The notes below the pieces were generated by a model that saw only the letters and a program-made list of their open reading frames with translations, searched no databases and was not told the origin of the DNA. Made by a program: the position numbers and the translations under genes. From Saccharofermentans sp. (GTDB taxonomy: Bacteria > Bacillota > Clostridia > Saccharofermentanales > Saccharofermentanaceae), in the NCBI GenBank assembly GCA_024692235.1, contig JAILMW010000007.1:62001-126000 (forward strand): 64,000 bases of DNA. The letters are read 5' to 3'. Position 1 is the first letter of the stretch. Each line of letters begins with the position of its first letter. This document shows positions 13,625 through 54,802 of this stretch, one piece after another.

Positions 13625-13645
13625 CCACTTCTGGAGGTGATGCAT

Positions 13646-13882
13646 ATGACAACAACTGTACAAAAATGGGGAAACAGCCAAGGAATAAGACTTTCAAAAG
13701 AAATCTTGGCAACCGCTGATATTAATTGCGGCGATAAGGTCGATATATATGTTGCAGATGATGTAATAACTATCCGTAAGATAAAAGCTAAGAAGATAGA
13801 TCTGCTGTTTGAAAACTACAACGGTGATTATGTACCGACAGAACTTTCTTGGGGCGAACCCATAGGAGGAGAGTTATGGTAA
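13646..13882 (+). CDS. mazE: MazE-like AbrB-fold antitoxin
   Basis: MTTTVQKWGNSQGIRLSKEILATADI; GGAGGTGATGCAT RBS; ATG at 13646. Confidence 0.9.
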   Translation: MTTTVQKWGNSQGIRLSKEILATADINCGDKVDIYVADDVITIRKIKAKKIDLLFENYNGDYVPTELSWGEPIGGELW

Positions 13883-14202
13883 ATCAAGGAGATATTATAA
13901 TAATCAATCTTGATCCAAGATCCGGTCATGAACAAGCAGGTAAGCGTCCGGCTTTGGTTGTTAGCAATGATACGTTTAATAGCAGATGCAATATAGTTCT
14001 CGCTTGTCCTATCACAAGTACGGTCAATGGTTTTCCTCTTCATGTTATTCTTGATGACAGGACTAAGACGCAAGGATCAGTGCTATGTGAACATATAAGA
14101 TCACTTGATATTGAAGCCGGAGGCTATCGTGTCGTTGAACGATTACCTTCTGATCTTCTCAGTAATGTTATTGATGTGATCAACGCTGAGATAGAAGTTT
14201 GA
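13876..14202 (+). CDS. mazF: MazF-family endoribonuclease toxin
   Basis: MVNQGDIIIINLDPRSGHEQAGKRPALVVSNDTFN; start overlaps the mazE stop (ATGGTAA). Confidence 0.93.
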   Translation: MVNQGDIIIINLDPRSGHEQAGKRPALVVSNDTFNSRCNIVLACPITSTVNGFPLHVILDDRTKTQGSVLCEHIRSLDIEAGGYRVVERLPSDLLSNVIDVINAEIEV

Positions 14203-20162: not shown

Positions 20163-20900
20163 ATGAGAAAGATGAAGTACAATAAGCGCTCCAAGAAGGG
20201 CATGACATTGGTGGAGATGATCGTCGCCATGGCTTTGACGTCGATATTTCTTGCTTCTTGTGTTGTTCTTATACTTCCCGTCGAAAGGATATATACGGAA
20301 GTTGATAACTCAAGCCGCGCTCAGCTTCTTGCAGATACGGTAGTTAATTCCTTAAGAGCAGAGTGCTCAGGTGCATACATAACATCTCCGACTGACGTTC
20401 GTGTCGTGACATCAGGCGCTTCCGGCACTATCGTTGATGAGTGTAATGCAGCTTACGGTAATACGCTTATAGTAAGGAAGACCGCTTCGTATTTTGCTAC
20501 GATATCCTCTAACTATAATCTTACTCAGACTCATAAGGATACCGTACTTGCTAATGATCCTTCTCCCGTTATGAATTCGACTACGAGCCGTTCCGTATAC
20601 AGGATGACCTTCGTATCAGATCCTCCGAGAAGTGATTCGGCTCACTACGGTCATCTTCATTACGGATATCTTAATGTCGGAGCTGCTTCGTCTGAAGCGG
20701 ATCCTTCTACTTGGGTTCCTTATGACTTTACTAACCCTCTTATAAGCGGCGCTTACGGAGATTTCCTTGTAGCAGTCGAATTCGGTTCCGTCGTTAACGG
20801 TACTGACGGTCTGCCTTCTTATGTCAATTGCACTGTTCGTATATTGAACAGTAATAACGATACAGTCTATTCGAGACAGACGGTTCTCTGCTTTACCTGA
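20163..20900 (+). CDS. Minor pilin, PilW-like prepilin
   Basis: KKGMTLVEMIVAMALTSIFLASCVVLI class III leader. Confidence 0.8.
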   Translation: MRKMKYNKRSKKGMTLVEMIVAMALTSIFLASCVVLILPVERIYTEVDNSSRAQLLADTVVNSLRAECSGAYITSPTDVRVVTSGASGTIVDECNAAYGNTLIVRKTASYFATISSNYNLTQTHKDTVLANDPSPVMNSTTSRSVYRMTFVSDPPRSDSAHYGHLHYGYLNVGAASSEADPSTWVPYDFTNPLISGAYGDFLVAVEFGSVVNGTDGLPSYVNCTVRILNSNNDTVYSRQTVLCFT

Positions 20901-20966
20901 TAACACACTCTTATCCGCTTTGTGGTAAAATAACCACAGTAGTAACGGGAGTGTGTTCTATTAATC

Positions 20967-21632
20967 ATGAAGAAGATCCTCATTGTAGAAGACGACAGTG
21001 ATAACAGGGAAGAACTCTCTGTTCTCTTATCTTGTTCAGGATATGAAGCGCAGTATACGGATAAGTTCGATAATGTTGTTGATACTATCGTCAAGAGTTC
21101 TCCGGATCTTGTTCTTCTTGATATCGATCTTCCCGGATCTGACGGTAAGGAGATCCTTAAGGATGTCCGTAAGAAGAGTAAAGTTCCCGTTATAATGGTG
21201 ACCGGAAGCCAGAGAGAAGCAGATGAGATATTCTCATTCGGATACGGTGCCGACGACTATGTAACAAAGCCCTATAATCCCACTTTGCTCCTTCTTCGAA
21301 TCAATAATATCTTCAAGAGGACTTCCGTCTCGGAAGATGCTATAGAGTATATGGGTCTTAAGATAAATCCCGTACGTAATACCGTGACCGATCCTTCCGG
21401 TAAAGAGTTAGTACTTACTAAGAACGAGAATCTTATCCTCTGTCATCTTATAGGTAAGAGAGGTTCTATCGTCAGTAGAGACGAGCTTATGGATCATCTG
21501 TGGAATAACAGCGAGTTCATAAATGACAATACTTTGACCGTTAATGTCAGCAGGCTTAGAGGCAAGCTTGAATCGGCAGGTGTATCTGACGCTATCGAGA
21601 CAAGGAAAGGCTTAGGATACGTACTGAGATAA
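20967..21632 (+). CDS. OmpR-family response regulator (BceR-like by context)
   Basis: MKKILIVEDDSDNREELSVLLS, LLDIDLPGSDG, winged-helix C-terminus. Confidence 0.92.
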   Translation: MKKILIVEDDSDNREELSVLLSCSGYEAQYTDKFDNVVDTIVKSSPDLVLLDIDLPGSDGKEILKDVRKKSKVPVIMVTGSQREADEIFSFGYGADDYVTKPYNPTLLLLRINNIFKRTSVSEDAIEYMGLKINPVRNTVTDPSGKELVLTKNENLILCHLIGKRGSIVSRDELMDHLWNNSEFINDNTLTVNVSRLRGKLESAGVSDAIETRKGLGYVLR

Positions 21633-21633
21633 T

Positions 21634-22704
21634 ATGAAGATCGGTATCTACTTTAAGGATAAGTTTTGTGCCCTTACTGCCGTATTACTTCTATGCATTT
21701 TCGTAAGTGCGGTACTTTGGTGCTTTAAGGTAGATATACACGCCATAGTTATTACTGTAGTTCTCATACTTTTTACATTCGGCTTCGATCTTATCATGGA
21801 GTTAAGGAGCAAGAAGAGGTTCCTTGATGCTCTTTATGATAATGCCCATAATATCGACAAGGCATATCTTGTTCTGGAGACCATAACTGAGCCTTCATCT
21901 TCTGAAGGCAAGTTCATCTATGAGCTTCTTTTACATATCAACACTTCGATGGCAGAAGAAGTCAAGAACATAAAGAAGGAATCTTCAGAGTTCAGGGATT
22001 ATATAGAGCTTTGGATACATGAGGTCAAGCTTCCTTTATCAGCCATGAACTTAAAGCTTACTAACCTTATAAGGAAGGAACTTGATAAAGGAGACGAAGA
22101 GTCTGCAGCCAGGATATCAGATTACCGTAAGCTTATGTCTTTGATCCATGTGACACAAGGTTACTTAGAGCAGATCATGTACTATTCAAGGCTTGAGGTG
22201 TCCTCTAAGGATTATCATCTTACGGCCGTGTCCGTTAATTCCATAATCAAGGAAGTAGCAGTCAAGAACCGAGAGAGCATAACAGATAAAGATGTGACAT
22301 TGAACGCTGAGCCTATATCTTCCGACGTCAATGTCATAACAGACGATAAATGGATGATATTTATCCTCGGGCAGCTTATATCTAACAGCCTTAAGTATAA
22401 ACGAGATCCTGATTCTGTAATTGACCTTAAGGCGATAAGGCCGTCTGATAATACCGTAGAGATCAAGGTTCGTGATAACGGTATAGGAATTCCTGCATCA
22501 GATCTTGATAAGGTATTTGAGAAGAGCTTTACGGGAGAGAACGGCAGATTATTCAGTGAGTCTACCGGTATGGGGCTTTATATCGTAAAGACATTATGTG
22601 ACAGGCTCGGTCACGATGTCCGTATCGATTCTGTTCAGGGGCAGTGGACCGAAGTTACCATATCTATCGGTATCAACGATTATCTTGAAGCTGCCGTTAA
22701 GTGA
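21634..22704 (+). CDS. Intramembrane-sensing histidine kinase (BceS-like)
   Basis: Two closely spaced TMs, WIHEVKLPLSAMNLKL H-box, DNGIGIPASDLDKVFEKSFTG. Confidence 0.9.
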   Translation: MKIGIYFKDKFCALTAVLLLCIFVSAVLWCFKVDIHAIVITVVLILFTFGFDLIMELRSKKRFLDALYDNAHNIDKAYLVLETITEPSSSEGKFIYELLLHINTSMAEEVKNIKKESSEFRDYIELWIHEVKLPLSAMNLKLTNLIRKELDKGDEESAARISDYRKLMSLIHVTQGYLEQIMYYSRLEVSSKDYHLTAVSVNSIIKEVAVKNRESITDKDVTLNAEPISSDVNVITDDKWMIFILGQLISNSLKYKRDPDSVIDLKAIRPSDNTVEIKVRDNGIGIPASDLDKVFEKSFTGENGRLFSESTGMGLYIVKTLCDRLGHDVRIDSVQGQWTEVTISIGINDYLEAAVK

Positions 22705-22800
22705 CGGTAATGTCACCATTTGTAATATTAGATTCACGACCGGTTCCCTAATTATCAGTTATAGTTAACGTACGTTATGAGTTCGTGTGTGTTGAACTTA
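22701..22800 (+). promoter_or_regulatory. Regulatory module 1: GTGAC-N6-GTCACC box, TAACGTACGTTA palindrome, leader hairpin
   Basis: GTGACggtaatGTCACC 22701-22717; TAACGTACGTTA 22766-22777; TGAGTTC-gtgtgtgtt-GAACTTA 22778-22800. Confidence 0.7.
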
Positions 22801-22834
22801 ATTACCCTCAGGATTAGGGATGGGTTAAAGTCAG

Positions 22835-22880
22835 GGTCTTCCTTTGTCATTTATACTGACGAGGGAAGATCTTTGCTTTT
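22835..22880 (+). terminator. Hairpin plus T-rich tract between the two regulatory modules (terminator or attenuator)
   Basis: TCTTCCTTTGTCA-tttatac-TGACGAGGGAAGA, 13-bp stem with two G-U pairs, followed by TCTTTGCTTTTG. Confidence 0.65.
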
Positions 22881-22898
22881 GTCTCCCGGTTTCTCAGA

Positions 22899-22993
22899 GT
22901 GACAAAAACGTCACCTTAAGTTATATTCAAATTAGGACAACCCCTTTTCTTTAATGGTAAGTTAACGTACGTTACAAGTGAGTGTTCTTGTAA
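22899..22993 (+). promoter_or_regulatory. Regulatory module 2 (copy of module 1) upstream of the transporter genes
   Basis: GTGACaaaaacGTCACC 22899-22915; TAACGTACGTTA 22963-22974; TTACAAG-tgagtgtt-CTTGTAA 22972-22993. Confidence 0.7.
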
Positions 22994-23011: not shown

Positions 23012-23230
23012 ATGGAAATGAGTAAGAGTATAATTGGTCTTGTAATAGCAACAGCAGGAGTTATAGTTGCAGCCTTAGGTACGATGATACGTTTTGTGTC
23101 GACAGGTATGTTGAACGGAGCAGGGATCATAGTTATCGCATTAAGCTGTATCTTAGCCGTTTATAATCTTATCTGTTGCAGGAGTACGAGGGTCGGATCA
23201 ACTGTCTGTGAAAGAGATACTGAGACTTGA
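23012..23230 (+). CDS. 72-aa two-TM small membrane protein
   Basis: RBS GAGGGAAAGGGT; two hydrophobic helices; overlaps the downstream ATPase start. Confidence 0.65.
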   Translation: MEMSKSIIGLVIATAGVIVAALGTMIRFVSTGMLNGAGIIVIALSCILAVYNLICCRSTRVGSTVCERDTET

Positions 23231-23975
23231 TAATGTAGAGAAGTATTACGGAAGAGGATCTTCTCTTACCAAAGCCGTTGACGGTATATCCTTTTCCGTC
23301 AGCGAGGGCGATTTTGTCGTAATCATGGGTCCTTCGGGCTGTGGCAAGACAACTGTACTTAACTGTATCTCATCTATAGATGACGTCACGTCAGGTAAAG
23401 TCTATCTTGAAGGTGAAGATCTTACCGGAGTATCACGTAAATTCAGGAGTATCATAAGACGAGATAAGCTCGGTATAGTACTTCAGGACTATAACCTTCT
23501 TAATAATCTTACTGTCTACGAGAATATCTCTCTTGCCATGTCCATAAAGGGGATGAGGGTCCGTAAGGATGACCCTGCCATCTTAAAGCTTGCCGAAGAA
23601 CTTGATATAAAAGATCTTCTGGAGAGATTTCCTGATCAGTTAAGTAACGGTCAGAGACAAAGAGCAGCTACTGTAAGAGCGCTTGTCACATCGCCTTCGA
23701 TCCTTCTTGCAGATGAACCTACCGGAGCTCTTGATTCCGAGTCATCATCGAAGCTCTTATCTAAGCTCTTCTATCTTAATTCTCATGACGGAGTCACCGT
23801 TCTTATGGTCACCCATGACGTATTTGCCGCATCTTACGGTAACAGAGTGCTGTTCATGAAGGATGGTATGATTTTCCACGAGCTTAACAGAGGCGATAAG
23901 ACCAGAAAGGAATTCTTTGACGAGATCGTCAGTATCTATTCCTTGTCGGGAAGAAGGAACATCAGTGCCGATTGA
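23208..23975 (+). CDS. ABC transporter ATPase (BceA/MacB type)
   Basis: GPSGCGKTTVLN, LSNGQRQRAATVRAL, LLADEPTGALD; GTG start. Confidence 0.93.
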   Translation: MKEILRLDNVEKYYGRGSSLTKAVDGISFSVSEGDFVVIMGPSGCGKTTVLNCISSIDDVTSGKVYLEGEDLTGVSRKFRSIIRRDKLGIVLQDYNLLNNLTVYENISLAMSIKGMRVRKDDPAILKLAEELDIKDLLERFPDQLSNGQRQRAATVRALVTSPSILLADEPTGALDSESSSKLLSKLFYLNSHDGVTVLMVTHDVFAASYGNRVLFMKDGMIFHELNRGDKTRKEFFDEIVSIYSLSGRRNISAD

Positions 23976-25908
23976 GATAATAATCCGTAATATCAAAAGA
24001 TCGATAAATGATTACAGGGTATATTTCTATACTCTGATGATCTTCTCTATGATCTTCTATGTATTTAATGCCGTAGGAGACGATATATCAGGAAGAAGCT
24101 TCAATATCGGTAAGATAAATATATTCGTCTCCCTGATATTCTCTCTGCTGCTTTTATATGCCAATCACTTCATGATAAGGCAGAGAAGACCTGAGTTCAT
24201 GAACCTGGCGCTCTTGGGAATGAGCTTCAGGGATATTACCCTGGTATTATGTCTTGAGACTATCGTTGTTATACTGCTGTCTCTGATCCTCGGTCTTACA
24301 AGCGGGATCTTCGTCTCTCAGCTTGTTAATCTCTTCCTCAGGTATTATCTTTACGGTTCCGCAGAAGGTTACATATTCAGTTTGTCATCTTCCGCATTTC
24401 TCGGAATTATAAAGTTATACGGCATAGTCATATTCTTTCTTTGTGCATTCAATTCCTTGTCTGTAGGAAGGATAAAGATGCATCTTCTGCTTCGAGAAGA
24501 CTATGTAAGGAGCAAGAGGATAACGCAGATAGGATATGCCCGCCCTACGATCTATCTGTTGCTCTCGTTGATCATTGTCTTTATCAACAGACGGCTTCTT
24601 GTAGACCGCCTTGATTCTTTATCTGTCTTTGTTCTGATATTAACTTTTGTATTGTCGGTAATATCTATCCTTCTGATGATTCGTTCTGCTTTCCTGTTCT
24701 TAAGTGCATTCGCATCATCCGAGAAAGGATATAAGTATGTCTTCGAAGTAAGGTTCATAACAGATAACGGTAATGAGCTTACGTACCTTATGACAGCGGT
24801 AAGCGTTACTATCCTTATATCTTTTGTTCTTGTAGCAGGTTCCTTCGGTATTATCAATAACTTAAGAAAACTGTCTATAGAAGATATGCCATGCGATCTC
24901 ATGATAGAAGGTCCCGGGGATGTCTTATCAGAACTTGAAGATAACGGCATAGTTATATCCGATCATCTCTCTTCCTGGGAACAGGCTTATATCTATAATG
25001 ATCCCGATATAACTTATACAAGTATGTTCCTTGATCGTTCTCTTCTTACTGACAGGTATTACTATCTTGAACCCGAGCAATGCATAGATATTATGTCAGT
25101 ATCTGATTACAACAGATTAACGGTTATATATGATAATGATCCCGTTGTGCTTGACGAAGACGAGTTCCTTCTTACATCAGATCTTCCGTCCTTTAAGAAA
25201 GCTTATGATGAATCCTTGTCGTCGCATAATAAGATGATGATAAACGGGTATGAACTTAAGAGTATATCTTCGTCGTGCGTTGATGCGACTGTTTATCTTA
25301 ACCTTTCAAAGTCCAATGCCGGACTTCTTATAGTCCCCGATAAGGTGGTATCTTCCTGCACACCTAAGGGCAGTATCCTTCTGGGTGAACATATCTTAGA
25401 TAAAGCCGAAGAAGATCTTGATTCTCTTACCATAGAAAGACTGGTTCCTCACGGGTATCACATAGAGACGGCGTCGATGATAAAGGATGATTACAGAAGG
25501 CTTACCATTGATACTATGTATGTTTGCCTTTATACATCTTCGGTATTTATTATATGCTCCATGGCTGTCTTATCCTTCAAGGAGATGATAACGATAGGAA
25601 GAAGATCTTCTATGCTAAAGTCATTAACGTTGATGGGATTTCCCGATGAAGAGATAAGAAGATACTTCGTGTGTCATATAACTACTATCTTTTCATGTAC
25701 CGCGATAGCATCTTATATCCATTCCGGCTATCTTATCAGGGTCATAAACAGATTCGTAGAGACCGTCGGAACCTTCGATATTCCTTTAAGCTATACGGTA
25801 TATTCCGCATTTCTCTTTCCGTTTCTTATCGCATTTGCGGTCTTAACTTACAAGACATCATCAGATCTTTGCTTCAGGGTCAGAAGTAATTCTTACGGTA
25901 AGTATTGA
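23965..25908 (+). CDS. BceB-like FtsX-family ABC permease with large extracytoplasmic domain
   Basis: About 10 predicted TMs with a roughly 200-aa loop; GTG 23965 overlaps the ATPase end. Confidence 0.85.
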   Translation: MPIEIIIRNIKRSINDYRVYFYTLMIFSMIFYVFNAVGDDISGRSFNIGKINIFVSLIFSLLLLYANHFMIRQRRPEFMNLALLGMSFRDITLVLCLETIVVILLSLILGLTSGIFVSQLVNLFLRYYLYGSAEGYIFSLSSSAFLGIIKLYGIVIFFLCAFNSLSVGRIKMHLLLREDYVRSKRITQIGYARPTIYLLLSLIIVFINRRLLVDRLDSLSVFVLILTFVLSVISILLMIRSAFLFLSAFASSEKGYKYVFEVRFITDNGNELTYLMTAVSVTILISFVLVAGSFGIINNLRKLSIEDMPCDLMIEGPGDVLSELEDNGIVISDHLSSWEQAYIYNDPDITYTSMFLDRSLLTDRYYYLEPEQCIDIMSVSDYNRLTVIYDNDPVVLDEDEFLLTSDLPSFKKAYDESLSSHNKMMINGYELKSISSSCVDATVYLNLSKSNAGLLIVPDKVVSSCTPKGSILLGEHILDKAEEDLDSLTIERLVPHGYHIETASMIKDDYRRLTIDTMYVCLYTSSVFIICSMAVLSFKEMITIGRRSSMLKSLTLMGFPDEEIRRYFVCHITTIFSCTAIASYIHSGYLIRVINRFVETVGTFDIPLSYTVYSAFLFPFLIAFAVLTYKTSSDLCFRVRSNSYGKY

Positions 25909-25934
25909 CCGATATTACAAGTTTCTTATTATGC

Positions 25935-25946
25935 TATAATCAAGGC
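25935..25946 (+). promoter_or_regulatory. Extended -10 promoter immediately before a response-regulator ATG
   Basis: TGCTATAAT ending at 25940, six bases, then ATG at 25947. Confidence 0.6.
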
Positions 25947-26639
25947 ATGAGATATGATTGCCTGATAATAGATGATGAGAAGGAACTTGCGGATAATACC
26001 CGTGATTACTTTAACCTCTTTGATGTCTCTTCCTATTCGGTATACGGAAGGGATGAGGCTATTGAGTTTCTTAAGGACAACGAAGCTTCTCTTATCCTTC
26101 TTGATATCAACTTAGGAGACGGAAGCGGTTTTGAGCTTTGTAAGAAGATAAGGGAAGAAATGGATATCCCGATACTTTTTATATCTGCCAGAAATACCGA
26201 TGATGATAAGCTTATAGCTCTTAACATAGGCGGTGACGATTATATAGAAAAGCCCTATTCCATGGGTGTTATCTTAGCTAAGGTCAAGGTTTTCCTCAAA
26301 AGGTTCGGTAAAGTATCTTCTGACACTTCCGGTATATACAAAGACTCCCGTATCAGTGTCGACAAGATAAATAAGACTTTAACGGTGGAAGGCACTCCCA
26401 AGAAGCTTACGAGTCTTGAGTTCACGCTCCTTTCGTATCTTACGGATAATCCCGGGCGTCTTATCACGAAGAAGGAGCTTTTTGACAACGTATGGAAAGA
26501 TAAGTTCACTTCAGACGGTACTTTGAATGTACATATAAGAAAACTCAGGGAAGCTATCGAGAAGGATCCGCAGGAACCGTCCTATATCGTTACCGTATGG
26601 AAGGAAGGATATAAGTTCATTCCGGAGAAGATCAGATGA
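25947..26639 (+). CDS. OmpR-family response regulator
   Basis: MRYDCLIIDDEKELADNTRDYFNLF, LLDINLGDGSGFELCKKIRE, winged helix. Confidence 0.92.
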   Translation: MRYDCLIIDDEKELADNTRDYFNLFDVSSYSVYGRDEAIEFLKDNEASLILLDINLGDGSGFELCKKIREEMDIPILFISARNTDDDKLIALNIGGDDYIEKPYSMGVILAKVKVFLKRFGKVSSDTSGIYKDSRISVDKINKTLTVEGTPKKLTSLEFTLLSYLTDNPGRLITKKELFDNVWKDKFTSDGTLNVHIRKLREAIEKDPQEPSYIVTVWKEGYKFIPEKIR

Positions 26640-27883
26640 AGATCACAAGATATATCGTAGCTCTTGTGATCACGTTTATCCTTGAAGCAGTATTATGCGT
26701 CTTTTTCCTCGGGCAGTTAAAGACCGACTACAACGATCCCGTTAAGATAAACGAGTGCCTCAAAAGCGTTGAGACCAATTTCCCTGATGAGTCTTCTTAT
26801 ATAACATCGGTCGACTACACCGTATTATCTTCCGAAGGAGAATTATTATTTGCTACAAGAAGCGGCCTTGCATCTTCAGTTAATGACGCTGTTAAGAATA
26901 ACGATACTATCCTGGATGTAGAATTAAGCGGAGATCATGGCAAGATCATAATCCATAACGATACTAAAGCGATGCTGACTTCTTCCAAGAAGAATATCAC
27001 CATTACGGTCGTCTCCATGACTGCGGTTCAGCTTACAGTTATCTTTTTGTACTTAACATACCTTAGAAATAACATTACAAAGCCGTTTAAGAACATGAAC
27101 GATTTTGCCTACAGGGTAGCTGAAGGTGACCTGGACGTTCCTTTGTATATGGATAAGAAGCATGTTTTCGGCAATTTCACGGAAGCTTTTGACATAATGA
27201 GGACTGAGCTTAAGAAAGCTCGAAATGCAGAGAAAAAGGCAAGCGACGACAAAAAGGAGATAGTAGCAAAGCTTTCTCATGACATTAAGACCCCCATAGC
27301 TTCCATCAAGTCAACGTCGGAGATAGGATATGAACTCTCATCCGACGAGAAGATAAAAGACTACTTTAATCTTATAAACGTTAAAAGTGACCAGATAACT
27401 CTTCTTGTGGATAATCTCTTTAATTCAAGCGTCAATGATGTTATAGAGATCCCGGTGGAGCCTTCGTCTTACGACAGCTCTATCCTTGAAGATATGATAA
27501 GAAGCGCAGATCACCTTAATAAAGCTACGGTACCTTCTATACCTTCTTGTACCATCTATGCGGATAAGGTAAGACTTCAGCAGGCTTTTGATAATATCTT
27601 CATGAACTCATATAAGTATGCGAATACGCCTATTACCGTAGATGCTTTACTGGATAAAGATCATCTTAAGATAATGATAGGAGATACGGGCCCGGGCGTC
27701 ACTGAAGAGGAATTACCGCTTCTTAAGAATAAATACGAGAGAGGATCTAATGCTTCAGATAAGGATGGCGCGGGATTAGGACTATATCTTACGAATTATT
27801 ATATGGAGCGTATGGAAGGTAAGCTTATATTGAATAATAAGGATCAAGGTTTTGAGGCAACTCTTTATTTAAGAACTATTTAA
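26636..27883 (+). CDS. HAMP-containing sensor histidine kinase
   Basis: KLSHDIKTPIASIKSTSEI, HAMP-like region, GDTGPGVTEEEL, GAGLGLYLTNYYME. Confidence 0.92.
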   Translation: MKITRYIVALVITFILEAVLCVFFLGQLKTDYNDPVKINECLKSVETNFPDESSYITSVDYTVLSSEGELLFATRSGLASSVNDAVKNNDTILDVELSGDHGKIIIHNDTKAMLTSSKKNITITVVSMTAVQLTVIFLYLTYLRNNITKPFKNMNDFAYRVAEGDLDVPLYMDKKHVFGNFTEAFDIMRTELKKARNAEKKASDDKKEIVAKLSHDIKTPIASIKSTSEIGYELSSDEKIKDYFNLINVKSDQITLLVDNLFNSSVNDVIEIPVEPSSYDSSILEDMIRSADHLNKATVPSIPSCTIYADKVRLQQAFDNIFMNSYKYANTPITVDALLDKDHLKIMIGDTGPGVTEEELPLLKNKYERGSNASDKDGAGLGLYLTNYYMERMEGKLILNNKDQGFEATLYLRTI

Positions 27884-27945
27884 GGGTTCTTTAAAGGCAC
27901 TTAAGGGTCATAGAACTAAGATGGTGTCATAAGGAGGAGATAATA

Positions 27946-28701
27946 ATGAAAAACATCATTGAGACTTCAAAACTTTGCAAGACATATTCATCGAACGGCG
28001 TGCAGCAGCATGTGCTTCGTAATATCGATCTTGAGATCAAAGAGGGTGACTTTACAGTGCTTATGGGACCTTCAGGTGCCGGTAAGTCAACGCTTCTTTA
28101 TTCGCTGTCGGGTATGGATAAGCCCAGCCTTGGAAAGATCACTTTCTGTGAGACTGATATCACCGATATGAATTCCGATCAGCTTGCAGTATTCAGAAGG
28201 AAGCATTGCGGATTTGTATTCCAGCAGACATATCTTGTAGATTCCATGAGTATCATGGATAACGTATTATCCGCAGGTTTTCTTATAAGTAATGACAGGA
28301 AAGAAGTAATAAGCAAAGCCCGTGAGATATTAAAGTCTGTAGATCTTACAGGAGAGTTGTGGGATAAGTTCCCGTCTCAGGTATCAGGCGGTGAAGCACA
28401 AAGAGCAGGCATCGCCAGAGCTCTTATCAACAGACCCGCCATGCTTTTTGCAGACGAACCCACGGGTGCTCTCAACTCGAAGACAGGGAAAGATGTATTG
28501 GATGCGCTTACTAAGTTTAATGTTGAAGGACAGTCGATCGTTATGGTCACTCATGACATCGTAAGTGCAAGAAGAGGTAACAGGATCTTATATCTTAAGG
28601 ATGGCGAGATCGCAGGTGAACTTGACCTGGGAAGATATATCTCAGGCGATAAGGAGAGGCATAACGCTCTTCGAGATTTCTTAGGCGGAATGGGGTGGTG
28701 A
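27946..28701 (+). CDS. ABC transporter ATPase (MacB/LolD type)
   Basis: GPSGAGKSTLLYSLSGMDKPSLG, VSGGEAQRAGIARALINRPAMLFADEPTGALN. Confidence 0.94.
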   Translation: MKNIIETSKLCKTYSSNGVQQHVLRNIDLEIKEGDFTVLMGPSGAGKSTLLYSLSGMDKPSLGKITFCETDITDMNSDQLAVFRRKHCGFVFQQTYLVDSMSIMDNVLSAGFLISNDRKEVISKAREILKSVDLTGELWDKFPSQVSGGEAQRAGIARALINRPAMLFADEPTGALNSKTGKDVLDALTKFNVEGQSIVMVTHDIVSARRGNRILYLKDGEIAGELDLGRYISGDKERHNALRDFLGGMGW

Positions 28702-28704
28702 TCC

Positions 28705-31059
28705 ATGAATAAGTCATTACTTCTTGCACGTGCTCACTTCCGCAAGAATAAGGGTACGTCGATAGGACTTTTATGCCTTCTTATAATTACGGCGATGCTT
28801 CTTTGTCTGTCGCTTCTTATGGTTACGGATGCTTATCCTCTTGCATCTATCGAGGCCGAGCGTCTTGACTCAGGAGACGGTTTTTTCAGGATAACTGAAG
28901 ATCTTACGGGATTAGACGAACAGGTCTTTGATGAGATCTTAGAAGAAGATACCGGCCGTCATTATACATATCAGTGCTTAAACTACATTATGAGCGTTCC
29001 TTTTGCAGGCGGAGATATGTCATGTAATTTCCAGTTCTGCGACGGTGATACGGCATTTAACAAGGGTCTTGCTCGTTCCGAGATAGTTACCGAGGACACT
29101 TCAGTTACAACTGATTATGTTATCCTTCCGTATCAGTTCTATACTTCAGGCGGATATAAGATCGGAGATGATTTTAATATCGTAGTTCAGGGCAATAAGT
29201 ATGATCTTAAGGTAAGGGGCTTTCTTACTACTCCGTATTTCGGATGCAATAATTCCGGTTCTTATGAGGTAGTAGTAGATGATGATACATATTCTGAGAT
29301 GAATAGTATCGAATCTCCTTCTCTTTGCTACATCGTAGTATATGAGCTTAAAGAAGGCGTTAAGGATTCCGCGTTCGGTATCAGGTTCCTAAATGACTGT
29401 CTTACATATGCGCCCGGTTCTGCAGTATCTCACGTACCGCTTGATGTCAGCATTTCGAACAGGACGTTCGTATCTCTTATCTTCGTTATCGCATTTATGT
29501 CAGTGACGCTTATCCTTATGCTCGTAGTTCTTATGATGCTTATTAATTCCATCTCAAATTACATCAAAGAGAGCATGAAGACATTAGGCGCACTTAAGGC
29601 TATCGGTTATACGAGCAGGGATATAAAGGTCTCACTTCATATACTCTTTACGCTTCTTGCGGTAATAGGATCTGTAGCCGGTATCCTGATCTCTTATGTC
29701 TCTATGCCAATTTTCTCCAAGATCGTCGTTGCACAGATGGGCATACCGTATAAAGTATCTGTTGTGTTGTTACCTACGCTTTTGATATTAGTTATCGTCG
29801 TTCTTTATACCATGCTCGTGACAGAAGCAGCGCTTCACGATATAAGAAGGATAGAGCCTATCGTTGCTTTAAGAGACGGTACAGAGGGCCACAGCTTCAA
29901 GAGGAACAGAGTAAGACTTGATAAGTCAGATCTTCGTATCAATATCGCTCTTGCTCTTAAGACGACGCTTTTTAACATAAAGCAGAATATAATCTCATTC
30001 GTAGTAGTAGGAGCAATGGTATTCTTATGTACCCTCGGAGTTCTTATGTATGAGAATTTTAATGTTCATCCCAAGATCGAGATGTTGTCCTTTGAGTTCG
30101 GAAGCGGAGTTGCAGCCTTCGACAACACCTCTAAGGAAGAAGCAAAGGAATATCTTGAATCATTAGACGGAGTATCTAATGTTCGTAACTGCATAAATCT
30201 TTATTTCTGTTACGGTGACGAGGAGAGGCTTTATACTTATATCATGGATGATGTCTCTAAGCTTGATAACAAGAATGTATGTTATGAGGGGCGTTTACCT
30301 CAATATGACAACGAAGTGGCAGTAAGCGGTAAGTTCTGCAGAGAATACGGTTTATCAGTAGGGGATATATTGGAACTTACATACGGCGATGAGACCTACG
30401 GTTATCTTATTACCGGACTTATCCAGACTACCAATAACCAGGGTAAGGAAGCGGTTATGAATGAGACGGCGGCTTCTCATATCGTGGATCTTACGGATGC
30501 TCCTGCTTATTATCACTTTGACTGCGACGAAGAGACTTCTGAAGCTTCCGATAAGGTGCTCGATAAGTGTGAAGAGAAGTTCGGATCTCATATGATCTCT
30601 AGAATGAACTTCTACGACATAATAGAAGGAGCTCTTACGACATTTAAGATGGTTGCCGTTGCAATGCTCTCGGTTATGTTCGTGGTATCTGCTCTTGTAA
30701 TACTTCTGGTACTTTATCTTCTTGTTAAGTCCCTTATCCTTAATAAGCGCAAGGATTACGGTATATTGAAGGCAATAGGATATAAGACTTCAGATCTTGT
30801 CATACAGACAGCCGTAAGCTTTATGCCGTCCATATTGATATCCGTGATAGTATTCTCGGTATTGTCATATCATCTTGCCAATCCCTTTATGAATCTGGCA
30901 ATGGGATCCTTCGGCATAGTAAAAGCTGATTTTACAGTCCCTATTCCGGGCGTAGTCCTGGTAAGTATCTTTATAACGGCAATATCCTTCGCTTTTGCAA
31001 TATTAGAGTCTCGTAAGATCCGTAAGATAGAAGCTTATAAGATGCTCGTAAGTGAATAA
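28705..31059 (+). CDS. FtsX-family ABC permease with two FtsX modules
   Basis: 784 aa, repeated 'KTLGALKAIGYTSRDIK' and 'KDYGILKAIGYKTSDLV' FtsX motifs. Confidence 0.9.
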   Translation: MNKSLLLARAHFRKNKGTSIGLLCLLIITAMLLCLSLLMVTDAYPLASIEAERLDSGDGFFRITEDLTGLDEQVFDEILEEDTGRHYTYQCLNYIMSVPFAGGDMSCNFQFCDGDTAFNKGLARSEIVTEDTSVTTDYVILPYQFYTSGGYKIGDDFNIVVQGNKYDLKVRGFLTTPYFGCNNSGSYEVVVDDDTYSEMNSIESPSLCYIVVYELKEGVKDSAFGIRFLNDCLTYAPGSAVSHVPLDVSISNRTFVSLIFVIAFMSVTLILMLVVLMMLINSISNYIKESMKTLGALKAIGYTSRDIKVSLHILFTLLAVIGSVAGILISYVSMPIFSKIVVAQMGIPYKVSVVLLPTLLILVIVVLYTMLVTEAALHDIRRIEPIVALRDGTEGHSFKRNRVRLDKSDLRINIALALKTTLFNIKQNIISFVVVGAMVFLCTLGVLMYENFNVHPKIEMLSFEFGSGVAAFDNTSKEEAKEYLESLDGVSNVRNCINLYFCYGDEERLYTYIMDDVSKLDNKNVCYEGRLPQYDNEVAVSGKFCREYGLSVGDILELTYGDETYGYLITGLIQTTNNQGKEAVMNETAASHIVDLTDAPAYYHFDCDEETSEASDKVLDKCEEKFGSHMISRMNFYDIIEGALTTFKMVAVAMLSVMFVVSALVILLVLYLLVKSLILNKRKDYGILKAIGYKTSDLVIQTAVSFMPSILISVIVFSVLSYHLANPFMNLAMGSFGIVKADFTVPIPGVVLVSIFITAISFAFAILESRKIRKIEAYKMLVSE

Positions 31060-54072: not shown

Positions 54073-54732
54073 TCAGTTGATATTGTATCTGTGAAGACCT
54101 ACGACCTTACCGAGGATCTTGCATTCCTCAGTATCAAAGGGAATAGGCGCATAGAGCTCATTCTCCGGGAAGAGGTAAGGCTTACCGTTCTGCTTACCGT
54201 ATCTCTTGACAGTAGCTTCATCACCGATAAGTGCAGCGATGATGTCGCCTTCATCACAGGAATCCTGCTTCCTTACGATGATATAGTCGCCGTCAAGGAT
54301 ATGAGCATTGATCATACTGGTACCGCTTACCTTAAGAAGGAAGCAATCATCAGATCCTATGATCGACTTGTTTATATACTGAGAATCGGAATAGTCCTCG
54401 TGAGCGTAGATGGGCTGACCTGCAGTGATCTTACCGACACAATTAAGCTTGATCACATCTGCGGGGATGCGTTCTTCTTCCTCGGAATTCTCATTCTGAT
54501 TCTTAAGTATAATAGCTCTTCTCATACCGGGTCTGTACTCTATAAGACCCATCTCATCAAGCTTACGAAGATATGTATGTACTGAAGAAGTGGACTTGAG
54601 TCCTGCTCCGGCACATATATCTCTTACTGAGGGAGAAAGAGCGTTCTCATGGATATATCTCTGTACATATTTATAGACACGTTCGATGGATTTGGCGGAT
54701 TTGCTTTCCGGGTTATGCTGCGTAACTGACAT
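54073..54732 (-). CDS. lexA: LexA repressor
   Basis: N-terminal wHTH (TSSVHTYLRKLDEMGLIEY), TAGQPIYA cleavage site, KVSGTSMINAHILDGDYIIVRKQ. ATG at 54732 (MSVTQH). Confidence 0.95.
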   Translation of the reverse strand: MSVTQHNPESKSAKSIERVYKYVQRYIHENALSPSVRDICAGAGLKSTSSVHTYLRKLDEMGLIEYRPGMRRAIILKNQNENSEEEERIPADVIKLNCVGKITAGQPIYAHEDYSDSQYINKSIIGSDDCFLLKVSGTSMINAHILDGDYIIVRKQDSCDEGDIIAALIGDEATVKRYGKQNGKPYLFPENELYAPIPFDTEECKILGKVVGLHRYNIN

Positions 54733-54788
54733 AAAAACCTCCAAACATATTTTCTTGATTACATTGTATTTTAAATACATAAGAATGT

Positions 54789-54802
54789 CAAACACTTGTT
54801 CT
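54789..54802 (-). promoter_or_regulatory. LexA/SOS box
   Basis: On the minus strand AGAACAAGTGTTTG matches CGAACRNRYGTTYG at 13/14; lies between lexA and the divergent operon. Confidence 0.75.

Follow-up and report, generated by a model that had tools for sequence, protein, structure and literature searches.

The operon of a putative peptide-defence transporter, part of a Bce-like module in the rumen-type bacterium Saccharofermentans sp., appears to be read from two tandem, diverged copies of one Bce-type inducible promoter (P1 and P2), each of which carries, at its predicted start site, a palindrome that may serve as the operator of a second regulator. We consider this reading as a whole, that is, a duplicated Bce-type promoter joined to an operator of CRP/FNR-like frame from which the second regulator most likely represses at +1, moderately probable. 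The window (the whole stretch of 64,000 nucleotides that was analysed) belongs to one of two sister species that are each other's closest relatives (genomes G000, containing the window, and G001). With 83 further genus genomes the comparison covered 85 in all, and for the box described below it drew on another 40 kinase or permease loci taken from related genomes.

The module and its two promoters

The locus is rightly called Bce-like, as the earlier note had it, because of its BceS and BceB matches and the topology of its kinase and permease. The kinase HK1 matches BceS (PDB) with an E value of 1.2e-20, and its two predicted transmembrane (TM) helices (11–29 and 37–55) leave almost no loop between them. 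The permease matches BceB (PDB 7tcg, E 1.1e-5 over profile positions 4–280). Permeases of the BceB type have about 10 TM helices, TM7 and TM8 being set apart by a large extracellular domain; here hydropathy called nine, the gap at 298–519 separating the seventh from the eighth. The OmpR-family regulator RR1 and a BceA-type ATPase lie in the same locus (Table 1). The gene for a 72-aa protein without Pfam or NCBIfam match sits between P2 and the ATPase gene, whose start it overlaps; it is kept in the sister genome (L039, near 2430–2643) and the protein is possibly an accessory subunit.

Table 1. Features of the Bce-like locus and its promoter region (positions in the window)
Feature	Position	Strand	Basis or remark
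RR1, OmpR-family response regulator of the Bce-like module	20967–21632	+	Response_reg and Trans_reg_C
HK1, BceS-like intramembrane-sensing kinase	21634–22704	+	BceS match, TM prediction (two helices, short loop)
Box 1 of P1, GTGACGGTAATGTCAC	22701–22716	+	BceR-type, TGACG-N4-TGTCA
Predicted -10 of P1, TATAGT	22760–22765	+	58 nt from box T; genus spacing
Palindromic operator 1 (putative), TAACGTACGTTA	22766–22777	.	spans predicted P1 start
Hairpin 1 of the earlier note	22778–22800	+	not supported as functional
Box 2 of P2, GTGACAAAAACGTCAC	22899–22914	+	BceR-type, TGACA-N4-CGTCA
Predicted weak -10 of P2, TAAGTT after TGG	22958–22963	+	58 nt from box T; inference
Palindromic operator 2 (putative), TAACGTACGTTA	22963–22974	.	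at predicted P2 start
Hairpin 2 of the earlier note	22972–22993	+	not supported as functional
72-aa small protein, first gene behind P2	23012–23230	+	two predicted TM helices
BceA-like ABC ATPase	23208–23975	+	ABC_tran
BceB-like permease	23965–25908	+	FtsX domain; large loop between 7th and 8th predicted TM helices
RR2, second OmpR/VanR-type regulator	25905–26639	+	co-directional, downstream
HK2, second histidine kinase	26636–27883	+	
Second ABC ATPase (27946–28701) and FtsX-type permease (28705–31059)	27946–31059	+	

Several neighbouring features were recorded alongside. Directly after the permease follow a VanR-like regulator/kinase pair and an FtsX-type ABC transporter (25905–31059), and HK2 has 50–60 % identical relatives in most of the genus. 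Before RR1 (20895–20960) lie the inverted repeats AACACACTC/GAGTGTGTT and TGTGGT/ACCACA, which are absent from the sister genome. Judged by eye, the window also holds a MazE/AbrB-like and PemK/MazF-like toxin-antitoxin pair (13637–14202) and, on the minus strand, a LexA-like repressor gene (54073–54795) whose start is without a TAACGNNCGTTA site.

Both GTGAC-N6-GTCAC boxes described in the earlier note are present and exceed chance, being intact in the sister genome and part of composite sites in the sister genomes (see below), and the first indeed overlaps the TGA stop codon of the kinase gene (22702–22704). Their assignment to the adjacent OmpR-family regulator likewise holds up as likely. 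The motif TNACA-N4-TGTNA, which has been published (PMC9020739) as the consensus site of regulators acting on bceAB-type genes, occurs about 95–105 bp before the ABC gene in most of the fetched genus loci with a nearby ABC gene. Set against TNACA-N4-TGTAA, the window boxes fit in geometry and in the outer TNAC/GTNA bases (TGAC-N6-GTCA), but they depart from it at one inner base of one half and, in the right half, at position four, where C replaces A. They are close variants of a BceR-type site and likely candidates for binding by phosphorylated RR1.

Across the genus, the Bce-like modules (L081, L090, L092–L120) carry a TGTGACA-N4-TGTNAG box, often followed after about 11 bp by a GTAAG repeat, and together with the spacing to the predicted -10 this box makes up a clear genus-wide Bce promoter grammar. 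In all 22 distinct promoters of this kind the distance from the box T to the start of the -10 element is 58 nt, one base allowed, so that the box lies at a constant distance ahead of the transporter promoter; in the composite promoters the corresponding spacing is 57–58 nt. The 58-nt rule picks out TATAGT for P1, TAAGTT for P2, TAAAGT/TACAGT for a leucine-rich repeat (LRR) gene and TAACAT for a lipoprotein gene. As the box to -10 spacing matches that of the genus, P1 and P2 should each start inside their own palindrome, and the starts predicted in this way agree with the ranges of the earlier note (22766–22780 and 22963–22975). The -10 predicted for P2 is weak, which counts against the reading. 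An alternative arrangement, with a box-overlapping -35 and the -10 at TATATT/AATATT, was not adopted, since TATAGT stands at the 58-nt distance that is usual in the genus.

The palindrome, its distribution and its possible readers

The two TAACGTACGTTA palindromes of the earlier note are in place and, being kept in the sister genome, are more than chance. The layout that it described stands too, its distances of 48 or 47 nt becoming 49 and 48 bp when measured from the end of the box (GTCAC) to the palindrome, as the note counted one more C into the box. Among the 85 genus genomes, only the sister genome has an orthologous permease (83 % identity), and its kinase is 85 % identical to HK1, the next best relatives found being less than 40 % identical. 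There, both boxes and both palindromes are intact and much of what separates them is kept too, while the stretch immediately following the palindromes has diverged. Conservation of the operon elements is accordingly judged from one species pair, since only two genomes carry the operon.

A search for TGAC-N6-GTCA followed by TAAC-N4-GTTA within 38–66 bp found four such composites in each of the two species and one unrelated place in the 83 other genus genomes, where the palindrome is without CG pairs. In both species the four are P1, P2, the promoter of a ChW/LRR surface protein gene and that of a lipoprotein gene, with gaps from GTCA to TAAC of 50, 49, 59 and 48 bp in G000 and of 49, 49, 59 and 48 bp in G001, the 59-bp gap lying one helical turn beyond those of 48–50 bp. 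The exact GTGAC-N6-GTCAC sequence occurs at five sites in G000, and as four of these are composite and the fifth lies within a coding frame, every non-coding box of this variant there has a palindrome near its predicted start.

Beyond the composites, GTTAACNNNCGTTA occurs at 9 sites in G000 and 12 in G001 (1 and 0 for the backward control), as compared to about 0.5 per genome, with similar controls, in the 83 other genus genomes. All 21 sister-genome sites are intergenic versus 8 of 28 examined elsewhere, where the other 20 fall within genes. The core TAACGNNCGTTA, with 10 sites in G000 (one of them, L221, in a coding frame) and 12 in G001 (controls 0 and 1), shows a preferred outer G-T on each side among the 32 listed sites. 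Sites of the GTTAACNNNCGTTA form mostly precede secreted or envelope genes. Several palindrome sites are orthologous and lie upstream of a CAAX-protease family gene (L181/L187) or of the genes for the ChW/LRR surface protein (L183/L192), the lipoprotein (L184/L186), a large secreted protein (L185/L194), a ChW/esterase protein (L220/L224) and a small membrane protein (L195/L196), and others lie before further secreted proteins. The third exact TAACGTACGTTA copies of the two genomes are not mutual orthologs; at the place orthologous to that of G000, a one-base variant is found in G001 (L003/L140). The palindrome set therefore appears, from its sequence distribution, to mark a small regulon-like gene set found only in the two sister species. 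One pair of sites (L185:2690, GTTAACGTACGTTA, and L194:2701, GTTAACGGACGTTA), kept in both species with differing flanks, lies between convergent genes, where an operator is not expected, and so counts against the promoter-operator reading; it may perhaps point to an unannotated small RNA or gene.

At the composite promoters the palindrome spans roughly positions -1 to +10 relative to the predicted starts, and repression is therefore argued there. Elsewhere it lies between about -38 and +13 (positions judged by eye), namely near -38 at L182 and L190 and just downstream of the predicted start at L184, L189 and L222, placements that would suit a dual regulator. As to the protein involved, the TTAAC-N4-GTTAA frame of the palindrome is that of CRP/FNR-family operators, and the TAACGNNCGTTA core has the dyad of roughly 5-bp half-sites 4 bp apart that is typical of such operators. 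Since this frame is common to the NssR and HcpR2 motifs, a CRP/FNR-type protein is our first guess for the palindrome reader.

If this guess were wrong, the palindrome could serve as operator for a dimeric repressor from a different family (TetR, MarR, XRE or similar), with all other parts of the reading unchanged. Many dimeric repressors typically have sites of dyad symmetry that are scattered around core promoters, although the frame is a described CRP/FNR motif (PMC1274295), and we regard this alternative as unlikely, though worth keeping in mind. A particular candidate, a response regulator of G001 with an HTH (XRE) domain ahead of its receiver domain (L223:1269–1865, minus strand), adjoins a His_kinase-family kinase gene (L223:3–1269, minus strand), the pair being divergent from a secreted-protein gene with a palindrome site; it was excluded as the common reader because G000 has no close homolog.

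Quite improbable, in our view, is that RR1 itself reads both kinds of site, its molecules co-operating along one DNA face. Box and palindrome are both built of TNAC/GTNA half-sites: the box region has GTCA/GTAA, and GTTAACGTACGTTA has two copies of GTTA at a distance of 10 bp. The composite gaps (48–50 and 59 bp) are about one helical turn apart; against this, the half-site spacing is unlike (TNAC-N6-GTNA versus TAAC-N4-GTTA) and most palindromes have no nearby box. Close kinase and permease orthologs and the palindrome set are confined to the same two genomes, a co-occurrence that is weak evidence because these are closest relatives. The second regulator of the locus, RR2, lies behind P1/P2 in the same direction with no clear gap and might conceivably bind the palindromes and thus autoregulate, but genus genomes without the palindrome set have an identical or almost identical recognition-helix region (SDGTLNVHIRKLREAIE), which makes RR2 a very unlikely reader, and it was disfavoured accordingly.

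Stems behind the palindromes

The earlier note had further seen in the sequence behind each palindrome a hairpin kept by compensatory change and had taken palindrome and hairpin together as a second DNA or RNA control element. The palindrome may well be such an element at the DNA level, given its regulon-like enrichment and its place in the composites, but the hairpin part did not stand. Stems of 7 bp can indeed be drawn in both window copies (TGAGTTC/GAACTTA with one G-T pair, TTACAAG/CTTGTAA perfect), and shorter or bulged ones in G001, which speaks for a conserved RNA stem at the mRNA 5' end, controlling stability or translation. However, the 61-nt folds of the window copies (z = +0.43 and +0.87) are no better than those of shuffled sequences, with the same outcome in G001, and fixed 32-nt windows gave p values of 0.008–0.16, the stems of the window copies having been picked after the fact. 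By base composition, a stem of at least 7 pairs in the 26-nt slot has a probability of 0.11–0.22 per copy. No stem was found at the lipoprotein composite promoter, nor one kept by compensatory change across orthologs and paralogous promoters. In the orthologous region, to which the earlier note had looked for conservation, box and palindrome are thus kept, but the hairpin is weakened. The seemingly compensatory difference between P1 and P2 is most simply explained as two unrelated stems expected by chance, and a conserved element is, to our mind, most improbable.

A search for Rfam families found none in the leader (one sub-threshold microRNA match only). Another stem considered for the Bce-like leaders of the genus, in which the -10 region would pair with the bases preceding the ATG, looked covarying by eye but was rejected, as own pairs gave 6.2 bp versus 5.7 bp for swapped ones.

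A two-input reading and known systems

As for the proteins that bind, the stimulus and the sign of the effect, we infer the following. The kinase-transporter pair would sense an envelope-active peptide, whereupon phosphorylated RR1 would activate the small-protein/ABC/permease operon from the BceR-type box about 57–58 nt upstream of the -10. A second, homodimeric regulator would use the 12-bp palindrome TAACGNNCGTTA at the start site as operator. This regulator would have a small regulon of envelope and secretion genes, confined to this species and its sister, and would most likely repress when bound at +1, so that the transporter would be fully on only with the peptide signal present and the second regulator off the DNA. 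A stronger version, which we put forward tentatively and with somewhat less than even confidence, is that every promoter with the RR1 box variant has acquired, at phased distances (48–50 or 59 bp), the 12-bp palindromic operator of a lineage-specific regulator, the two proteins touching or competing on one DNA face as a two-input gate for peptide defence. To our knowledge, a gate of this sort is undescribed for Bce systems. The usual view of a Bce-type module is that of a closed loop whose expression depends on transporter activity alone; a second regulator appearing on the same promoters would tie the peptide-defence circuit to a wider envelope/secretion programme, and the palindromic operator is characterised sharply enough to be used as bait for its binding protein.

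With the BceR-type promoters of bceAB of Bacillus subtilis, psdAB and bceAB of S. pneumoniae (TCS01), the window shares the RR-HK-ABC-permease order, the BceS/BceB homology and, ahead of the transporter genes, a box that forms an inverted repeat (TNACA-N4-TGTNA). It differs in that its boxes vary in one half (TGACA-N4-CGTCA, TGACG-N4-TGTCA) and in having two promoter copies, a start-site palindrome and a 72-aa membrane protein before the ATPase. The GraR site of Staphylococcus aureus (AAGTGACA-N4-TGTCATTT), which precedes vraFG, is placed within the last part of graS, the kinase gene, comparably to box 1, which overlaps the end of HK1, whereas the part of that source available here describes no TAACGNNCGTTA palindrome or promoter duplication (PMC3128592). 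The palindrome, compared by motif, resembles the operators of the CRP/FNR-family proteins NssR (TTAACnnnnGTTAA) and HcpR2 (GTAACnnnnGTTAC) in the half-site class and N4 spacing of TTAACGNNCGTTAA (PMC1274295), but in most of the sites here the inner G..C is fixed, and the genes concerned are those of envelope and secretion rather than nitrosative stress. Summed up, the box belongs to a kind of site that is already known, and the region is best read as a duplicated Bce-type promoter to which a lineage-specific, putative palindromic operator has been added.
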